A stretch of DNA of 64,000 nt from Clostridiaceae bacterium BRH_c20a. GTDB lineage: Bacteria > Bacillota > Peptococcia > Peptococcales > BICA1-8. Below the pieces are notes generated by a model that had not been told where the DNA came from, did no database searches, and was given only the letters and a program-made list of their open reading frames with translations. Numbering within the stretch: the stretch's first letter is position 1; each line of letters begins with the position of its first letter. Below are positions 408-62,050 of this stretch, piece by piece. A program made the translations under genes and the position numbers. The DNA lies in the NCBI GenBank assembly GCA_000961765.1, contig LADT01000026.1, forward strand, positions 1 to 64,000. Direction: 5' to 3'.

Positions 408-425
408 TTTGATGAGAAATTTCAG

Positions 426-496
426 GAGCCGGATACGGCAAACGTAAGTCCGGTTCTGTGAGAGCAAAGAAAACAGGACTAATTATCCTGTTTTCT
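426..496 (+). ncRNA. group II intron domains V and VI
   Basis: Domain V is the catalytic hairpin of group II introns. GAGCCGGA (426-433) pairs with TCCGGTTC (449-456), allowing one G-U, and the interior TACG/CGTA stem closes a GCAAA loop. Downstream, 468-478 and 486-496 form a perfect 11-bp stem with a 7-nt loop, in the position of domain VI. The bulged branch-point adenosine of domain VI is not obvious, so the exact domain VI fold is uncertain. Position right after the maturase stop codon supports the call. Confidence 0.7.
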
Positions 497-772
497 AGCT
501 ACTCGATTAACTATTCTATATGAGTCTTTTAAATGGAGCCTGAGGTAAAGCTTGCCGTTAGCACCCATATTAAAATGCATGGTCTGTGCCTTATATTTGC
601 CTGAATCATCGGGGTTTGTTTTTATAAAAAGAGAGTAATTCTCTCCTACAATAGGTCTTGCACTAAATGATGAACTATCTGCCAGTAAAATCTTACGAAG
701 CTTTAGATCACCAAGATACAACATTAATGCTTCTAAATCTTCTCCAACCAAATTCATATTTTTAAGATTCAT
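479..772 (-). pseudogene. hypothetical protein, 3' end replaced by group II intron
   Basis: A minus-strand frame of about 97 codons from ATG 772 (an upstream TTG at 781 is possible); family not recognised. It is mixed polar/hydrophobic with no signal peptide or clear motif. No good ribosome binding site is visible, and a stop codon lies just upstream of 781. The last eight or nine codons fall inside the predicted intron (up to about 507), so the native C-terminus appears to have been cut off by intron insertion in the antisense orientation. It may not be expressed. Confidence 0.35.
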
Positions 773-6865: not shown

Positions 6866-6944
6866 CTTTCGGCAACCCGGCTACCATAGCTTGTGCTTTA
6901 GGCCCGTAGTTTTGCGTCCCTAGTTTTCACTAGGTTTGCCTTTT
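6866..6944 (-). ncRNA. c-di-GMP-I (GEMM-I) riboswitch aptamer
   Basis: Reading the minus strand from 6944, the sequence has the conserved parts of the class I cyclic-di-GMP aptamer in order: GGCAAACC, a GNRA-type GTGAAAAC hairpin, GGGACGCAAA, a variable P2 region with GGGCCTAAAG, CTATGGTAGCC and GGGTTGCC. The P1 helix pairs GGCAAACC-proximal bases with GGTTGCC. The class senses the second messenger c-di-GMP. A terminator follows within 25 bases, then the DUF2292-like gene. Confidence 0.93.
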
Positions 6945-6952
6945 CTAAGATT

Positions 6953-19532: not shown

Positions 19533-20630
19533 TTAGATGCCGTAAACTTTATAGCAATTAGCACATACCACAGGTACTTTTTCTTCAGCCAGTTGTTGAT
19601 CAAGTTTTTGATAATTAATATGGATGAGCTGGGAAGTAGGCTCATTATCAAAGGTTTCATCCATATAAGTATTGAATAATTTTATCCGTCTATCATATAC
19701 ACCACGAAAATCTAAATATCTTTTATCACTCCACAAATCAAGAAAATTAGTTTCATTAATATTTCCGATAATGAAAGAAGGCTGCTCAAATTCTTTCTCG
19801 TTAAAAAATGCCCGGACATTTTTTAGGGCTAAGTATGGGCAGGGTGTTATTAGTCCATCCCATGTAACAAAAACGTTTTTTAGGGGGTTATAATCACAGG
19901 TTATTGCTTCATTACCGATTAGAGGTTTAGGGTTGAAATATACATTTTTACGGTCGGCAATTTTTTTTGCCTGATTGATAAAAGCTTCATATTCCTCCTT
20001 ACCTTTGGCTTTTCCTTGTTTAATTAAGTCACCCCGGTTTTCATCCGAAATTATCCCCTCAAAAGCCTTTTTACTGTTGGTTTCCGGGGAAATAATGAAA
20101 TTTATATTACTAGCATTAATCTCATCAATTCCCAGATCGCCGGCTTGTTCAACAAAAGACGGTAAATCACTGATGCTATCTTGAGTCATAACAAAATCAA
20201 GAATTATTTTCGTATCGTTTTTACGCTGTTTTACTAAACCCATAATATTTTCGCTGACATTATTAAGAGTAACAATAGGATAGTTAAAGTTGATAGTAAT
20301 CTTATCCGGAGATAAATTGGTAAGCTCTTTTATATTTGAGGGGTTAAGCTTAGTGCCTAGTGTTGTTATTTCAAGCTGAGAAGAGTTTTCTCTAGCAATT
20401 TTAAACATTTCGAAAAACTGGGGATGCTCGAGTGGATCTTCCCAACCCAAGAAATGTACTCTTTTTGCCTGATTGAAGTACTTTGATGCTTCAAAAAAGG
20501 TGGATAGTTCCATAAATTGATTTGTTTTATTTTCCAAAGGTGATCGATGGGCAATTTCAATTTGTAGGTCATCAATAATACGAGCTTTTTTTGGTTCCTT
20601 TTTTCCAAAAAGTGATGAAAAAAACCCCAT
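19533..20630 (-). CDS. radical SAM/SPASM-like protein lacking the SAM-cluster cysteines
   Basis: The 365-residue protein follows the layout of a radical SAM/SPASM enzyme. LQIEIA (22-27) stands where the first strand precedes CNLxCxxC, HFLGWEDPLEHPQF (59-73) matches the usual GxGEPLLHP strand, and a SPASM-like end carries C245, C264, C356 and C359 (ITCDYNP, ITPCPYLAL, CANC). The cysteine triad is missing: residues 30-37 read SPLENKTN. It therefore cannot bind the SAM-cleaving cluster in the usual way. It is divergent from the DVU0298/DUF3786 pair. A regulator, carrier or chaperone role is possible but unproven. No frameshift is seen. Confidence 0.75.
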   Translation of the reverse strand: MGFFSSLFGKKEPKKARIIDDLQIEIAHRSPLENKTNQFMELSTFFEASKYFNQAKRVHFLGWEDPLEHPQFFEMFKIARENSSQLEITTLGTKLNPSNIKELTNLSPDKITINFNYPIVTLNNVSENIMGLVKQRKNDTKIILDFVMTQDSISDLPSFVEQAGDLGIDEINASNINFIISPETNSKKAFEGIISDENRGDLIKQGKAKGKEEYEAFINQAKKIADRKNVYFNPKPLIGNEAITCDYNPLKNVFVTWDGLITPCPYLALKNVRAFFNEKEFEQPSFIIGNINETNFLDLWSDKRYLDFRGVYDRRIKLFNTYMDETFDNEPTSQLIHINYQKLDQQLAEEKVPVVCANCYKVYGI

Positions 20631-20779
20631 TCTATAATCCTCCCAATAAATATTATTGAATTAAATAGATATTTAACAGATAATAATTTGCTAAATAACT
20701 ACCAAAATCCTTCTGGTTTTAAAAATATTTATTGAGGGTAAGATAATTCCAGATGAGACTACTCTGGAGGTATATTTTA

Positions 20780-21439
20780 ATGGATAATAAGCAGTTGGTG
20801 CGAGAATTAGTCGCCGAACAAAAATATGAACAATTGCTTAAGTTAGGACGAAAAAAACATAATCAAACTTTAAAATATATTCAAATGCATCTATTTGAGG
20901 ATATAAATATGCCTTTAAGGTGGTATGGTATCGAGGCAATTGGCAGACTTACGAGAGAATTGGCTCCAAGGGAGCCAGAAATATATAGAAATTTGATCCG
21001 CCGTTTTTTATGGGCTATGAATGATGAGAGTGGAAATGTACCTTGGAGTTCACCGGAGGGGATAGGCAGTATTATAGCCAACCAGCCCTTTTTATTTGGA
21101 CATTATACTCCAATGCTGATTACTAATGCCTTAGATAATCCAATGTGCCATCGAGGGACTCTTTGGGCAGTTGGCCGTATAGGGAAGATAAAACATTCAT
21201 TGGTATTACCGTTTATTGAGGAAATTACCCCTTTTCTTTCTGCGGTGGACTCTGATTTAAGAGGATATGCTGCCTGGGCTTTAGGTGAAATAGGTTTTTA
21301 TCGGGTATTACCGGAGTTAATAACCTTACAGGAGGATACAAGTCCTGTGTATATTTTTAGAGAAGGCCGGCTTAGCTTGGCAAGTGTAGGTACATTAGCC
21401 AAAGAAGCTGTCGGAAAGCTGGTTGAGGGAGGGATTTAG
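20780..21439 (+). CDS. DVU0298-type HEAT-repeat protein
   Basis: A conserved protein of anaerobes without a defined biochemical role. The 219 residues form HEAT-like helical repeats (LRWYGIEAIGRL, HRGTLWAVGRIGKI, LRGYAAWALGEIG) with the signature NVPWSSPEGIGSIIANQP, which I recall from the DVU0298 family of sulfate reducers and relatives. ATG 20780 follows CTGGAGG. The next gene starts immediately after the stop codon (TAG then ATG), so the two are translationally coupled. HEAT repeats usually mediate protein-protein binding. Confidence 0.8.
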   Translation: MDNKQLVRELVAEQKYEQLLKLGRKKHNQTLKYIQMHLFEDINMPLRWYGIEAIGRLTRELAPREPEIYRNLIRRFLWAMNDESGNVPWSSPEGIGSIIANQPFLFGHYTPMLITNALDNPMCHRGTLWAVGRIGKIKHSLVLPFIEEITPFLSAVDSDLRGYAAWALGEIGFYRVLPELITLQEDTSPVYIFREGRLSLASVGTLAKEAVGKLVEGGI

Positions 21440-36741: not shown

Positions 36742-37926
36742 ATGATTGGAATAAGCAAACTTTTAGTCGATACAAATAACTTTGGTGATACATTGCGCTA
36801 CAGTCACAAGTCCCAGGGTACCTGTCATGGGGCTACCCATGATCGAGGTCCTGTGGTAGTTTGGAACTGCACTAAAACCTGTAACCTAAAATGCATCCAC
36901 TGCTATGCAGGCTCTGACAGCAAAAAATATGATGGTGAACTGACTACTAAAGAAGCGGTTAAATTTATAGATGATTTAAAAAGTTTTAATGTGCCTGTTC
37001 TTTTAATTTCTGGTGGGGAGCCTTTTATGCGGGAAGATATCCTCTATTTGGCTGAATATGCAGCCAAATTGGGTATTCGCAGTACATTTTCCACCAATGG
37101 GACTTTAATAACCCGCCAAACTGCAAAAAAACTAAAGGAAATTGGCGTTGGTTATGTGGGTATCAGCCTAGATGGTCTGGGAGATAACAATGATAAATTT
37201 CGAGGACAAAAAGGTGCTTTTGAGCTGGCCTTAAGGGGTATTGAGAATTGTTTAGCTGAGGGCCAAAAGGTAGGCTTGAGGTTTACAATTAACCGGCATA
37301 ATTATCATGAACTTGATGGTATTTTTAATTTAATAGAAGATGTTAAAATTCCTCGGATTTGTTTTTATCATCTGGTTTACTCAGGGCGGGGCAGTGAAAT
37401 GATAAAAGAGGATATTTCTCATTCTGAAACTCGACAGGCGCTAGATCTGATTATAGATAAGGTCCGTTATTTTAAAAATAAGGGATTAGATAAAGAGGTC
37501 TTGACAGTTGATAACCATGCTGACGGTGTTTATCTTTATCTAAGGCTCCTTAAGGAAGACCCTCAAAGGGCCAAAAAGGTCTTGGAATTACTAAGGTTTA
37601 ATGGTGGTAATCGTACCGGCATAGCCATTGGTGAAGTGGATTGGTTTGGTCATGTGCATCCTGACCAGTTCACACAAAATCATACTTTTGGAAATGTTCG
37701 AGAGAATAAATTTGGTGATATCTGGACTGACCCTAAACATCCTATCTTAAATGGACTGAAAAATCGAAAGAACTTACTCAAAGGGCGTTGTGCCCAATGT
37801 CAGTGGTTAGATGTCTGTAACGGCAACTTTAGGGCTAGAGCCGAGGCCGTGACAGGTGATTTCTGGGAATCTGATCCTGCCTGTTATTTGACTGATGAAG
37901 AAATTGGTTTGTCCAAGGAGAGATGA
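36742..37926 (+). CDS. ahbC: AhbC/NirJ1-type radical SAM heme biosynthesis enzyme
   Basis: AhbC removes two acetate side chains of 12,18-didecarboxysiroheme to give Fe-coproporphyrin III in the siroheme-dependent heme pathway. The 394-residue protein has the N-terminus MIGISKLLVDTNNFGDTLRY, typical of NirJ1, and the SAM-cluster motif CNLKCIHC (about 53-60) preceded by VVVWNCTKT. A SISGGEPF strand and a C-terminal SPASM-like set follow (CAQCQWLDVCNGN, DPAC). It overlaps the next gene by a few bases. The final enzyme AhbD (NirJ2) is not in the window. Confidence 0.88.
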   Translation: MIGISKLLVDTNNFGDTLRYSHKSQGTCHGATHDRGPVVVWNCTKTCNLKCIHCYAGSDSKKYDGELTTKEAVKFIDDLKSFNVPVLLISGGEPFMREDILYLAEYAAKLGIRSTFSTNGTLITRQTAKKLKEIGVGYVGISLDGLGDNNDKFRGQKGAFELALRGIENCLAEGQKVGLRFTINRHNYHELDGIFNLIEDVKIPRICFYHLVYSGRGSEMIKEDISHSETRQALDLIIDKVRYFKNKGLDKEVLTVDNHADGVYLYLRLLKEDPQRAKKVLELLRFNGGNRTGIAIGEVDWFGHVHPDQFTQNHTFGNVRENKFGDIWTDPKHPILNGLKNRKNLLKGRCAQCQWLDVCNGNFRARAEAVTGDFWESDPACYLTDEEIGLSKER

Positions 37927-37928
37927 AT

Positions 37929-38396
37929 ATGGATAATATTGATAAGAACCTCTTAAGTATAATCCAAAAGGATTTTCCTGTCTGTTCCCGGCCTTTTCAG
38001 GAAATAGGTGAAAAGCTGGGAATAACTGAGGATGAAACCGTAGCACGACTCTCTGAGTTAAAGGAACAAGGGATAATCCGGCGTTTAGGTGCAATTATGG
38101 ATTCCCGTAAACTAGGCTATAAGAGTACCCTTTGTGCTATGGAAGTTCCTTCTGATAACTTATCCCAAGTTGTGAAAGTAGTTAACGACTATATAGGAGT
38201 AACTCATAATTACCTGCGCAATCATGATTATAATCTGTGGTTTACATTAATTACTCCCTCACAAGGCCATTTGGAGAAAACACTTAGGGACATTGAAAAA
38301 AGAACAGGACAAAAAGTCTATAACCTTCCTGCCCTAAGATTATTTAAGATCAAGGTGAATTTTCATGTACCGGGTGTAAAAGGAGGAGAGGGTTAG
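37929..38396 (+). CDS. ahbA: siroheme decarboxylase subunit AhbA-like
   Basis: One half of the AsnC-like heterodimer that decarboxylates siroheme to 12,18-didecarboxysiroheme. The 155-residue protein has an HTH-like domain (FQEIGEKLGITEDETVARLSELKEQGIIRRLGAIMD) and a substrate domain with HNYLRNHDYNLWFTL, the pattern of the alpha-type subunit. ATG 37929 (AAGGAG eight bases upstream) is preferred to ATG 37923, which overlaps the ahbC stop codon. It is coupled to ahbC and to the next gene. Calling A versus B relies on motif memory. Confidence 0.85.
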   Translation: MDNIDKNLLSIIQKDFPVCSRPFQEIGEKLGITEDETVARLSELKEQGIIRRLGAIMDSRKLGYKSTLCAMEVPSDNLSQVVKVVNDYIGVTHNYLRNHDYNLWFTLITPSQGHLEKTLRDIEKRTGQKVYNLPALRLFKIKVNFHVPGVKGGEG

Positions 38397-38869
38397 TGTT
38401 TAATGACTTGGACAAAGCAATTATCAAAGAAATTCAGGGAGACCTTCCTTTAGTTGCTCAACCTTACCGGGAAATTGCCTCACGGCTGGGTATTTCGGAA
38501 CAAGAACTATTAGAGAAAATTAAAGAGTTTCAGAAACAAGGATATATTCGGCGTTTTGGGGCAGCTCTGCGTCATAGGGAAATGGGATTAAAAGCTAATC
38601 CCATGATAATTTGGCAGGTGCCGGAAGAAAGGATTGAAGAGGTTGGTAATAAACTGGCTTCTTTTGCTCGAGTTACCCATTGCTATCATCGGGCAATGCT
38701 TCCTAAATTGCAGTACAATGTATTTTCTATGATTCATGCCGAGACGAAAGAAGAATGTTTTAAACTAGCAAAAGAAATGGCAGAGGTAATAAACATTGAA
38801 GACTATAACCTATTGTTTAGTGAAAAGGAACTTAAAAAAACCAGCATGAAATATTTCATGGAAGATTGA
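38396..38869 (+). CDS. ahbB: siroheme decarboxylase subunit AhbB-like
   Basis: Second subunit of the siroheme decarboxylase. The 157 residues mirror the previous gene: HTH-like segment YREIASRLGISEQELLEKIKEFQKQGYIRRFGAALRHREMG and the ligand region VTHCYHRAMLPKLQYNVFSMIHAE, which matches the beta-type subunit. The GTG start at 38396 shares its G with the stop codon of ahbA, and AGGAGGAGAGG lies upstream. A terminator follows. With ahbC and ahbA it gives the first two steps from siroheme toward heme. Confidence 0.85.
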   Translation: MFNDLDKAIIKEIQGDLPLVAQPYREIASRLGISEQELLEKIKEFQKQGYIRRFGAALRHREMGLKANPMIIWQVPEERIEEVGNKLASFARVTHCYHRAMLPKLQYNVFSMIHAETKEECFKLAKEMAEVINIEDYNLLFSEKELKKTSMKYFMED

Positions 38870-39935: not shown

Positions 39936-40748
39936 TTGGTGGTGAGCAAGCTATACCAGGGCTGGTTAAATGCAGTAGACAAACATGATTATAAAAAAGC
40001 AAGAAAGTTATATATGGCGCTATTAAAAGAGGCACCGTTGACTGCGGGGATTAATTTCCCAATGGGCGTGTGGTATAAGGAAAAGGAGCTGTTTGAAGAA
40101 GCCGAGATGGCTTTTAAGAGGGCACTAATAACAGATCCTGGAATTGTTGCAGATAGTTACTATTACCTGGGAAATGTCTCGCGAGAGCAAGGAGACCATG
40201 GGCAGGCAATTGCTTATTACCGAGAATCCTTAAAGGTGGACCCTAATTTCTTTGAAGCCCAATATAATTTGGGGAAAATATATGCCATATTAGGTCAATC
40301 AAAAGAGGCATTACAAGAATTCACTAAAGCCTTGGAATTAAGCCCGGAGGATGTAGATACATATATTAATATTGGTGTGGAATTATCAAATCAGGGGAAA
40401 AGAAAAGAGGCTCTTGAAAGCTATGAAAAAGCACTGGAATTAAATCCGGAATCATATTTGGTTTACTCCAATATTGGTGTTGAGTTTACTGCTTTAGGAA
40501 ATTATGAGCAGGGTATTTTATATCATAAAAAAGCTCTTGCCTTAAACTCCTTTTATGCTGATGGGTGGTATAATCTGGCCTGTTCCTACGCTCGGGCTGA
40601 TGATTTTGAAAACTCATTAAAGGCACTAGAACGTTCTATTAGGCTAGATGCAAGCAATATAGAATATGCTAAAAAGGATCCTGAATTGGATAATATCAAA
40701 AGTACCTCCGGATATAAAAGTATTATAAAAAAATTTCCCAGACCATAA
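39936..40748 (+). CDS. tetratricopeptide repeat protein
   Basis: A cytoplasmic scaffold-type protein of 270 residues made of about six TPR units (A-x2-Y-x5-L-x2-P patterns, for example AIAYYRESLKVDPNFFEAQYNLGKIYAILGQSKEA, ALESYEKALELNPESYLVYSNIGVEF). No signal peptide or catalytic domain. TPR proteins bind partner proteins. Start is TTG 39936 or GTG 39942; the ribosome binding site (AAAGG) is weak. It lies 68 bases upstream of the Crp/Fnr gene on the same strand and could be co-transcribed with it. Confidence 0.85.
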   Translation: MVVSKLYQGWLNAVDKHDYKKARKLYMALLKEAPLTAGINFPMGVWYKEKELFEEAEMAFKRALITDPGIVADSYYYLGNVSREQGDHGQAIAYYRESLKVDPNFFEAQYNLGKIYAILGQSKEALQEFTKALELSPEDVDTYINIGVELSNQGKRKEALESYEKALELNPESYLVYSNIGVEFTALGNYEQGILYHKKALALNSFYADGWYNLACSYARADDFENSLKALERSIRLDASNIEYAKKDPELDNIKSTSGYKSIIKKFPRP

Positions 40749-58400: not shown

Positions 58401-58655
58401 TTGAGTGAGAATTATAAGTTTGTGCAAAACCCTAAATGCGAATATTTCCCCTGTCATAAAGTTCAGAAACCTGAAAGATTTAATTGTTTATTTTGTTACT
58501 GCCCACTCTATTTACTAAGAGAACAATGTGGCGGGAATTTTAAATATAACAAGGGTATCAAGGACTGCTCCCATTGCGCTATTCCCCATTCCCCAGGCGG
58601 ATATGAGTATATACGGGCGAAAATGGATATTGTCATCGATTTAGCTAAGCAGTAA
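58401..58655 (+). CDS. cysteine-rich small domain protein (PF04071 type)
   Basis: A metal- or cluster-binding microprotein common in anaerobes, often near corrinoid or glycyl-radical genes. The 84 residues match the family pattern closely: CEYFPCHKV, FNCLFCYCPLYLL, QCGGNFKY, IKDCSHCAIPHSP, with nine cysteines and several histidines. Start is TTG 58401 after AAGGAGGGG (six bases). It is 18 bases upstream of the activase gene, so it may be an accessory protein for the glycyl radical system. Confidence 0.88.
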   Translation: MSENYKFVQNPKCEYFPCHKVQKPERFNCLFCYCPLYLLREQCGGNFKYNKGIKDCSHCAIPHSPGGYEYIRAKMDIVIDLAKQ

Positions 58656-58673
58656 GCAGAAAGGGTGAGCTAA

Positions 58674-59573
58674 TTGACCTCGGGAATTATTTTTAATATT
58701 CAGCGGTATTCCATCCACGATGGTCCTGGTATTCGTACTACTGTTTTTTTAAAGGGCTGTCCTTTAAAATGCTGGTGGTGTCATAATCCGGAAAGTCAGA
58801 ATATCCATCAGGAAATAGCTTTTTGGCCTGACAGGTGCTTGGATTGCGGTGATTGCCTAAAAGCCTGTGCAGATAAAGCGTTAACAAGAAAAAACGAGGG
58901 CTTTTTAACTGACAAAAATAAGTGCCTGCTATGTGCTAGCTGTGCAAAAGCTTGTTTTACTGAGGCTAGGGAGCTAGTCGGTAAACAAATTACTATTGAA
59001 GAGGTAATGGAGGAAATTAAGCAGGATATTATTTTTTATGACCAATCAGGTGGTGGGGTTACTTTTTCAGGAGGAGAGCCTTTAATGCAGGGGCAGTTTT
59101 TACAGGAGCTTCTGCTGGCCTGCCAAAAGGAATATATCCATACGACGGTAGATACCTCAGGCTATGCCCCTTGGGAGGTATTAAAAGGGATAAGTAAGCT
59201 AACAAACCTATTTTTATATGACATTAAGCTTATAGATGAAGAAAAACACATAAAATTTACTGGAGTGTCCAATAGGCTGATTTTAGATAACTTAAAAAGA
59301 CTTCTTGCAGAAAAAACTAGAATAATAGTCCGTATTCCTATTATTCCTAACATAAATGATGATGTCGATAATATTCTCAAAACTGGTAGGTTGATGCGAA
59401 GTTTAGGCTTGAAGGAGGTAAATCTATTACCCTATCATGATAGTGCAACTGGCAAGTATGAAAGACGGGCAGAGACGTATCATTTAATGCAGGTAAAAAC
59501 TCCTACAAAGGAAAAAATGCAGGACATATCTTCCATATTAGCTGATTTGGGTCTAAATGCAGTGCAGCAATAA
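58674..59573 (+). CDS. glycyl-radical enzyme activase (HypE-like, PflA family)
   Basis: Installs the glycyl radical on the next gene's product. The 299-residue radical SAM protein has the SAM-cluster motif C29-x3-C33-x2-C36 (GCPLKCWWCHNP). Between this and the main barrel is a two-cluster ferredoxin insert (C55, C58, C61, C65 and C84, C87, C90, C94), which is usual for activases of dehydratase-type enzymes. TFSGGEPLMQ and NLLPYHDSATGKYE complete the family pattern. TTG 58674 starts the gene. It lies 116 bases upstream of hypD. Named HypE in hydroxyproline work, unrelated to hydrogenase HypE. Confidence 0.92.
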   Translation: MTSGIIFNIQRYSIHDGPGIRTTVFLKGCPLKCWWCHNPESQNIHQEIAFWPDRCLDCGDCLKACADKALTRKNEGFLTDKNKCLLCASCAKACFTEARELVGKQITIEEVMEEIKQDIIFYDQSGGGVTFSGGEPLMQGQFLQELLLACQKEYIHTTVDTSGYAPWEVLKGISKLTNLFLYDIKLIDEEKHIKFTGVSNRLILDNLKRLLAEKTRIIVRIPIIPNINDDVDNILKTGRLMRSLGLKEVNLLPYHDSATGKYERRAETYHLMQVKTPTKEKMQDISSILADLGLNAVQQ

Positions 59574-59689
59574 TTAATACAACTATGGCGAAAAAATAAT
59601 TCACAATTATTAGCTAACAATTGATTAATAAAGATCTTTTTTGTAATTTTTACTCTATATGAAAAGCTATTGAACTGGAGGTTAATAGA

Positions 59690-62050
59690 ATGAATGAACG
59701 AGTTGCAAAGCTAAGACAAGAAAGTTTAGAAACTGTGCCCTCTATTTCACTAGAACGGGCCCGACTGGTAACTGAGGCTTATAAAATGTACGAGGGCAAG
59801 GTTTCAGTACCTGTTTTAAGGGCATTAACCTTTAAATACTTAATGGAGAATAAAACCATCTGTATCAATGAAGGAGAATTGATTGTAGGTGAAAGGGGTC
59901 CTGCCCCTCAGGCCACACCTACCTATCCTGAATTGTGCTGCCATAGCTTAGAGGACATGGAGGTTATGCATAATCGGGAGACAATCTCCTTTTTTGTAAA
60001 TGAAGAGGCTAAAAAGATTCAAGAGGAAGTAATTATTCCCTATTGGAAGGGTAAATCAATGCGGGACCTATTGCTTAATTCCATGACTGTCCAGTGGAAA
60101 GATTGCTATTCTGCAGGGATTTTCACTGAATTTATGGAACAGAGGTCCCCGGGTCATACAGTAGCTGATGATAAGATATATAAAAAAGGTTTAATTGATT
60201 TAATGCAGGATATTGTTAAAAGTTTAAAAGAGTTAGACTTTTATAATGACACTAATGCATATGAAAAGCAGGAAGAATTAAATGCCATGTTGATTTGTGC
60301 TGATGCAGTTCTTACCTTTGCTCGGCGTCATGCTGAAAAGGTAGCGGAGATGGCTGAACTCGAAATAGATCCAATCAGGAAAAAGGAACTAGAAGAAATC
60401 GCAGTGGTTTGTGAACGGGTGCCAGCTCATAAACCAAGAACCTTTAGGGAGGCATTACAGGCGTACTGGTTCTTCCATTTAGGGGTAATAACCGAGTTAA
60501 ATACCTGGGATTCCTTCTGCCCTGGCAAGCTTGATCAGCATTTATACCCCTTTTACAAAGATGATATTGCTCAAGGTATTCTTTCACCCGAAGAGGCTAA
60601 AGAGTTGTTGCAATGCTTCTGGGTTAAGTTTAACAACCAGCCTGCACCTCCTAAGGTGGGGATTACTCTAGAGGAAAGCGGAACATATACCGACTTTTGC
60701 AATATTAACATTGGCGGATTAAAACCGGATGGAACCGATGGAGTCAATGAATTATCATATATGCTTCTGGAAATAATCAATGAAATGCGCATCCTTCAGC
60801 CTAGTACAAATATTCAGGTGAGCAGGAAAAATCCCGATAAATTTATTCAGAAAGCCGCCCAGGTAATTAGAGAAGGCTTGGGTCAGCCCTCGGTCTTTAA
60901 TACCGATGCTGTCATTGAAGAGCTTTTACGACAAGGTAAATCTATTGAGGATGCCCGCTGTGGAGGAACCAGCGGCTGTGTAGAAACAGGAGCTTTTGGT
61001 AAGGAAGCATATATTTTAACAGGTTATTTTAACCTTGTTAAGGTATTAGAAATTACCCTCTATAATGGCATGGATCCTCGCACAGGCAAATTGATAGGTA
61101 TACAGACCGGAAACCCCAGATATTTTACCTCCTTTGAACAGCTAATGGATGCATTTAAAAAGCAATTAAAGCACTTTATTGATATCAAAATTCAGGGAAA
61201 TAACATCATAGAAAAATTATATGCCATTCATATGCCGTCACCCTTCCTTTCTATTATTATCAGTGACTGTATTGAAAAGGGCAAAGACTATCATGATGGT
61301 GGTGCTAGATATAATACCAACTACATTCAAGGGGTGGGTATCGGCAGTATTACTGACAGCTTATCGGCTCTTAAGCACCATGTTTTTGAAGAAAAAACTT
61401 TGACTATGGATGAGCTCTTTAATACTTTGGAAGATAATTTTCAAGATAATGAAAAAATCCGGCAATTACTTTTAAACCTAACCCCTAAATATGGTAATGA
61501 TAATGATTATGCTGATAGTATAATGCAGGCTGTATTTGATGCTTTCTATACTGAAATAAACGGAAGGAAGAATATGAAGGGTGGTGTTTACAGAATCAAT
61601 ATGCTGCCTACCACCTGTCATGTCTATTTTGGTTCTGTTATCGGTGCCACACCAGATGGGAGAAAAAGCGGGGATGTATTATCAGAGGGAATTTCACCTG
61701 TTCAAGGGGCAGACCGCAAGGGACCCACTGCAGTTATTAAGTCGGCAGCTAAAATGGACCATCTACGGACCGGGGGTACCCTCTTAAATCAAAAGTTTAC
61801 ACCCCAGGTTTTAGAAGGAAATGAAGGACTTATAAAACTGACCCATCTTATCCGCTCCTATTTTAAACTTGACGGACACCATATTCAGTTTAATGTAATA
61901 AGCGCAGAAACCCTACGAAAAGCCCAGGCTGAACCTGAGAAATACCGGGATTTGATCGTTAGGGTAGCGGGCTACAGTGATTACTTTAGAAACCTCAATA
62001 AAAAGCTTCAGGACGAAATAATCGCCAGAACAGAGTATGACTCAATGTAG
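59690..62050 (+). CDS. hypD: trans-4-hydroxy-L-proline dehydratase HypD (glycyl radical enzyme)
   Basis: Removes water from trans-4-hydroxy-L-proline to give 1-pyrroline-5-carboxylate, which is reduced to proline by ProC. The 786-residue protein is the normal length. Active-site C430 lies in GGTSGCVETG with E432, and the radical glycine G761 lies in VRVAGYSDYF. Segments such as SISLERARLVTEAYKMYEG, EFMEQRSPGHT, WVKFNNQPAPPKVGITL and FGKEAYILTGY agree with HypD of Clostridioides difficile as I recall it, better than with PFL or CutC. Not the hydrogenase HypD. CTGGAGG precedes ATG 59690. No proC in the window. Confidence 0.9.
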   Translation: MNERVAKLRQESLETVPSISLERARLVTEAYKMYEGKVSVPVLRALTFKYLMENKTICINEGELIVGERGPAPQATPTYPELCCHSLEDMEVMHNRETISFFVNEEAKKIQEEVIIPYWKGKSMRDLLLNSMTVQWKDCYSAGIFTEFMEQRSPGHTVADDKIYKKGLIDLMQDIVKSLKELDFYNDTNAYEKQEELNAMLICADAVLTFARRHAEKVAEMAELEIDPIRKKELEEIAVVCERVPAHKPRTFREALQAYWFFHLGVITELNTWDSFCPGKLDQHLYPFYKDDIAQGILSPEEAKELLQCFWVKFNNQPAPPKVGITLEESGTYTDFCNINIGGLKPDGTDGVNELSYMLLEIINEMRILQPSTNIQVSRKNPDKFIQKAAQVIREGLGQPSVFNTDAVIEELLRQGKSIEDARCGGTSGCVETGAFGKEAYILTGYFNLVKVLEITLYNGMDPRTGKLIGIQTGNPRYFTSFEQLMDAFKKQLKHFIDIKIQGNNIIEKLYAIHMPSPFLSIIISDCIEKGKDYHDGGARYNTNYIQGVGIGSITDSLSALKHHVFEEKTLTMDELFNTLEDNFQDNEKIRQLLLNLTPKYGNDNDYADSIMQAVFDAFYTEINGRKNMKGGVYRINMLPTTCHVYFGSVIGATPDGRKSGDVLSEGISPVQGADRKGPTAVIKSAAKMDHLRTGGTLLNQKFTPQVLEGNEGLIKLTHLIRSYFKLDGHHIQFNVISAETLRKAQAEPEKYRDLIVRVAGYSDYFRNLNKKLQDEIIARTEYDSM

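Follow-up and report, generated by a model that had tools for sequence, protein, structure and literature searches.

The protein encoded at 19533–20630 (minus strand) of the window, by which is meant the whole 64,000-nucleotide stretch of DNA that was analysed, is best described as a pseudo-radical-SAM twitch protein of 365 amino acids, that is, a paralog of radical SAM enzymes that lacks the CxxxCxxC motif (hereafter termed Cys-less), would keep one [4Fe-4S] site and would serve as a non-catalytic partner. Judged from the sequence, the probability of this reading as a whole, in which both the cluster and the partner are putative, is about 50%. The assignment draws on an open frame, a Pfam SPASM match, orthologs, the dN/dS ratio and a fold match to PqqE. 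A preliminary description of the gene had considered that it might encode a scaffold that binds a cluster or the partner of another radical SAM protein, and explanations of this class remain the best. What auxiliary clusters do in twitch and SPASM enzymes is debated, and a natural protein with an auxiliary cluster site only, if that is what the gene encodes, could allow such a cluster to be studied alone.

Loss of the SAM-cluster motif

The reading frame had been described as intact, without mention of its strand, and this was borne out by the open 365-amino-acid frame on the minus strand. The protein contains exactly four cysteines, at positions 245, 264, 356 and 359. At residues 30–37 (20520–20543, minus strand), in the place of CxxxCxxC, the sequence reads SPLENKTN. 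This stretch had earlier been taken to stand for CNLxCxxC, and its position was correct, but a simple substitution is not what the alignment revealed. Fifteen intact relatives, comprising paralogs from the same genomes and homologs across Bacillota, were aligned with the three known Cys-less proteins, and CxxxCxxC was present in 15/15 of the former and in none of the latter. In all three Cys-less proteins the columns of the first and second cysteines form a deleted stretch and the third cysteine is a serine (Ser30 in the window protein). The two orthologs carry SPLANDSE and SPTEPEEN at the same place.

No CxxxCxxC was found in any of the six frames between 19001 and 21200, which rules out a hidden frameshift or an alternative start, and sequencing error or a hidden frameshift was rejected as the origin of the loss on the strength of these nearby frames together with the same loss in two independent orthologs.

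Erosion was not confined to the cysteines. The GEP motif of the intact relatives reads GDP or EDP in the Cys-less proteins, TNG reads TLG, TFG or TEG, and the SIAGAxxxTHxxLR segment is mostly deleted. These motifs are SAM-binding ones in radical SAM enzymes. When the columns conserved among the intact relatives were counted, all three Cys-less proteins had kept 10/31 in the barrel and 11/16 in the twitch region (Fisher p 0.03). On these sequence features the window protein is almost certainly not a working radical SAM enzyme, and it would be unable to bind and cleave SAM in the manner of such enzymes. The view that it is no normal radical SAM enzyme stands, and CxxxCxxC is absent from both orthologs as well.

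The window protein matched the Pfam SPASM profile (PF13186; 2e-10, 41.3 bits against a cut-off of 21.5), and its match to the Pfam Radical_SAM profile was below threshold (0.008) and began only at profile position 36, past the cysteine motif. The automatic label 'radical SAM/SPASM protein' can evidently name a protein incapable of radical SAM chemistry. Among the sequences of solved structures no sequence match to the window protein was found, and a PHROG search gave none either.

The best NCBIfam match was TIGR04317, the tungsten cofactor oxidoreductase radical SAM maturase family (1.6e-24, residues 34–310). It could be, then, that the protein acts like a maturase on tungsten aldehyde oxidoreductases (AOR), particularly as the genome of the window has 29 AOR-type matches (PF01314). 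However, the score of 86.7 bits fell short of the cut-off (380), and the other carriers of the gene fit poorly: in carrier G001 (89% complete) no AOR was detected and in carrier G004 there was one, while genome G003 has seven AOR matches and no Cys-less gene. The low score and the carrier with no detectable AOR place the window protein outside the TIGR04317 family, and a role in tungsten AOR maturation, rejected on account of that carrier, is extremely improbable. For genes or gene pieces of the tungsten aldehyde-oxidoreductase type, 29 AFOR_C (PF01314) matches are in themselves an unusually high number, and one of them, just past the window (contig C46:64550–65638), has an in-frame TAG.

The retained twitch site and the predicted fold

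The four cysteines fall into the pattern C-x13-G-x4-C ... C-x2-C, which is that of a one-cluster 'twitch' domain. The first half of this putative auxiliary cluster site is C245-x13-G259-x4-C264 (19839–19898, minus strand) and the second is C356-x2-C359 (19554–19565, minus strand), and all four cysteines are invariant in 18/18 family members (15 intact and three Cys-less). In a separate alignment of seven sequences, all four were among the 30 invariant columns, for which the hypergeometric chance is 3.8e-5. The preliminary description had listed the barrel as kept, and the same four residues as SPASM cysteines. The residues are indeed there, but the name SPASM does not hold: with four cysteines in the whole protein the seven-cysteine, two-cluster SPASM pattern is absent, and the pattern found is of the twitch type, with one auxiliary cluster.

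By analogy with BtrN, the window protein probably binds an Fe-S cluster, which would be a [4Fe-4S] cluster in the twitch site. Zinc, too, can be bound by four cysteines in CxxC-type pairs, and the barrel has been kept with a mutated pocket, so that one could instead envisage a substrate-binding or regulatory scaffold without any cluster, in which the cysteines are structural and form a disulfide or a zinc site. However, the four cysteines stand where the intact twitch relatives have those of the auxiliary cluster, with no variation among these relatives, and the hosts look like anaerobes; such a cluster-free scaffold is rather unlikely.

A structure prediction, which had been suggested as a check, was made with AlphaFold2 from three sequences and gave a model with a mean pLDDT of 66. 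Most of the barrel (residues 20–175) scored 80–94 and most of the C-terminal twitch part 30–55, a low confidence for cluster geometry. Structural comparison placed the model among radical SAM/SPASM enzymes, with Z scores of 18.2 for PqqE, 17.9 for SkfB, 15.9 for MoaA and 13.2 for BtrN. The predicted fold is that of a radical SAM partial barrel with a SPASM region.

Descent, selection and gene neighbourhood

A whole-genome search identified two orthologs, one in each of two further genera of the family, both full length, with 64% and about 47–48% identity and without the motif. Among the GTDB r220 species genomes, a scan recovered these two and no others, one from a Clostridia MAG and the other from Peptococcaceae bacterium UBA3933 (loci L018 and L019), and within the class the Cys-less gene was found in 3/46 genomes, a narrow distribution. 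It had been allowed that the cysteine loss might be isolated or a sequencing error. The loss is common to both orthologs and, given that these come from two other genera, was no isolated event. The close relatives (twitch group) that were inspected, taken from a sample of 398 genomes of the phylum, were all intact and included no other Cys-less member; no relative was found on viral contigs, and plasmids yielded only distant radical SAM proteins with 22% identity.

Comparison of the window gene with its closest ortholog gave a dN of 0.245 and a dS of 2.6 (saturated), hence a dN/dS of about 0.09, and the nucleotide changes at codon positions 1, 2 and 3 numbered 95, 57 and 190. The Cys-less gene is held by purifying selection. 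A pseudogene was rejected in view of this ratio and of the full-length frames in three genera.

The Cys-less proteins have gained an insert, DENRGDLIKQGKAKGK in the window protein (residues 196–211; 19998–20045, minus strand), which the alignments contain in this clade only and which is nearly invariant there. This stretch of about 14–16 residues, DENRGDLxxQGKxKGK, is the densest conserved stretch of the clade, with modest support (187 of 5000 shuffles were equally dense). Together with the strong purifying selection, the insert could be taken to point to a new catalytic type, an explanation offered in the preliminary description, in which the emptied barrel would bind another cofactor or substrate and carry out its own chemistry beside the auxiliary cluster. 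No positive evidence for this emerged: apart from the insert and a reworked N-terminal stretch, no new conserved site stands out in the three sequences known, and this explanation is very unlikely.

In a phylogenetic tree the three Cys-less proteins formed a monophyletic clade (support 100/100) on a long stem of 1.27, apart from the intact paralogs of their own family. The intact paralogs from these three genomes branched in the same order as the members of the clade, and therefore both genes seem to have descended vertically, from the ancestor of the family or earlier. The intact paralog was present in 3/3 carriers, in every case on a different contig from the Cys-less gene and with no shared operon, and two other genomes of the family had neither gene. 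In the window's own genome the intact paralog lies at C36:22200–23324.

Some observations on the surroundings of intact members may be recorded here. Intact family members were found near a polysaccharide deacetylase gene (L092, 1061–10571; L095, 7987–11986; L014, 3447–8162), and in L092 and L095 a gene that by eye resembles asparagine synthase was also nearby, a possible pathway clue. More distant relatives with the motif type TTGCNFxCTTCIRxSW (L063, L064, L068 and L070) adjoin genes that by eye look like arsenite permeases (Acr3-like). In carrier G004 (L015, 2242–2967 and 1096–2223), a protein judged by eye to be HEAT-like is followed 18 bp downstream, in the same direction, by the intact paralog, an arrangement not found in the other genomes. 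The candidacy of this HEAT-like protein as a DVU0298 relative was rejected, BLAST having detected no similarity.

The Cys-less gene lies head-to-head with a gene of the DVU0298 family, which encodes a HEAT-repeat protein (20780–21439, plus strand; NCBIfam NF045662, 7.5e-52, 176 bits against a cut-off of 75). In the window the divergent intergenic region (20631–20779) measures 149 bp to the ATG at 20780 and 122 bp to the ATG listed originally; the former is likelier, its MDNKQLV start matching the ortholog starts MDTKKLV and MVNKQLV. ORF coordinates give the same arrangement in both other carriers (L012 and L013), with gaps of 347 and 152 bp against the 122–149 bp of the window. It had been proposed that a DVU0298/DUF3786 pair accompanies the gene. 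The DVU0298 half of this was confirmed, the gene being a conserved head-to-head neighbour in 3/3 carriers (which does not in itself imply a functional link), but DUF3786 adjoins the Cys-less gene in the window only, and the pair as such was rejected.

This arrangement bears on the question of whether the Cys-less protein, its auxiliary cluster kept, senses redox state, carries electrons or serves as a structural partner in some other system, for example with DVU0298, and does not involve the paralog at all. Besides the 3/3 head-to-head pairs, this alternative is consistent with the presence pattern, in which each of the family's five genomes has the Cys-less gene, the intact paralog and DVU0298 together or has none of the three, and with the clade-specific insert, which suggests a new contact or site. 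Note, however, that the co-occurrence comes from one clade and may be mere common descent, amounting to roughly one observation. DVU0298 occurs in 16/46 genomes of the class (15 of them over the cut-off), mostly without the Cys-less gene and there often beside a TPR gene. The neighbourhoods of the three carriers moreover have in common TatC, DegV, an ahbC(NirJ1)-ahbB-ahbA block, a TPR gene and a copper ATPase, and the adjacency of the Cys-less gene and DVU0298 is weak evidence because both lie in this larger block conserved in the family. A role in another system is accordingly considered somewhat unlikely.

Elsewhere in the order, in a related family, DVU0298 and a TPR gene mostly form a co-directional pair (L103, L104, L105, L106, L107, L108 and L111), and in the window a similar TPR gene (39936–40748) adjoins ahbA instead. 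The ahbC(NirJ1)-ahbB-ahbA block of the window (36742–38869) lacks NirJ2, which is next to NirJ1 in genomes G002, G037 and G044; in the window's own genome NirJ2 is carried by a different contig, C65, and C19 has a second NirJ1. The Cys-less protein as a stand-in for a missing heme synthase was rejected, NirJ2 being encoded elsewhere in all carriers. NirJ1 was found in 15/46 genomes of the class, and these counts, with that of DVU0298 and the NirJ2 of all carriers, indicate that the heme pathway is independent of the Cys-less gene.

Other features of the window include a c-di-GMP-I riboswitch (6868–6950, minus strand; 86 bits), a group II intron end (424–507, plus strand; 45 bits) and, at 58401–62050, what by eye is an apparent glycyl radical enzyme of 786 amino acids, accompanied by its radical SAM activase and by a small cysteine-rich protein.

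A proposed partnership and its counterparts in known systems

One interpretation of these data, and the preferred one, is that the gene for a twitch-type radical SAM enzyme was duplicated and that one copy would have lost the CxxxCxxC loop and the other SAM-pocket elements before three genera of one Clostridia family split. In that copy, maintained by selection since, the barrel fold would have persisted together with the auxiliary site, whose four cysteines would hold one [4Fe-4S] cluster as they do in BtrN. The Cys-less protein would then act by protein–protein contact, the most likely partner being the intact paralog encoded elsewhere, and would either pass electrons between its own cluster and that paralog or hold a shared substrate. 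A partnership with the intact paralog in some form is plausible, at rather less than even odds: the co-occurrence of the two genes in 3/3 carriers favours it, and their location on separate contigs with no shared operon speaks against it. The long stem of the Cys-less clade and its position apart from its family's intact paralogs also count against the preferred interpretation. Its most specific version, in which the protein is an obligate partner subunit stripped of its SAM cluster that carries the auxiliary cluster and relays electrons to or from the catalytic paralog, is put forward only tentatively.

A search of the literature on pseudoenzyme radical SAM proteins found no direct precedent. 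The notion of SPASM proteins that lack radical SAM function is nevertheless already in use, as NCBIfam names one family, TIGR04347, 'pseudo-SAM/SPASM protein' (pseudo_SAM_Halo). Judged by its name, this is the same idea, but it belongs to another branch: the window protein had no match to TIGR04347 in an NCBIfam search at E up to 1, and the profile does match the NirJ1/AhbC protein (5.9e-127).

The nearest counterparts are the intact twitch paralogs, of which one (L002) is in the same genome and others are in Bacillota relatives. They share with the window protein the length, the barrel and the four-cysteine twitch site, at about 30% identity. They differ in having CNLxCxFCP together with GEP, TNG and SIAGAxxxTHxxLR, all of which are lost or changed in the window protein, and in lacking its insert. 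BtrN and other twitch-domain enzymes have the same type of four-cysteine site; in BtrN four cysteines hold one auxiliary [4Fe-4S] cluster, which assembles without the SAM cluster (PMC9012708). BtrN also has a SAM cluster, however, whereas the motif for one is missing from the window protein.

A parallel for the proposed partnership is thuricin CD synthesis, where two radical SAM proteins, TrnC and TrnD, form one complex in which only one needs its SAM cluster: the complex remains functional when TrnD is deprived of its CxxxCxxC (PMC12093266). TrnD itself still has the motif and cleaves SAM, whereas in the window protein the motif was lost in nature and the partnership is a proposal. For PapB, electrons are passed directly to another radical SAM enzyme (PMC10470005), and the Cys-less protein would test whether auxiliary clusters work between proteins, as has been proposed there.
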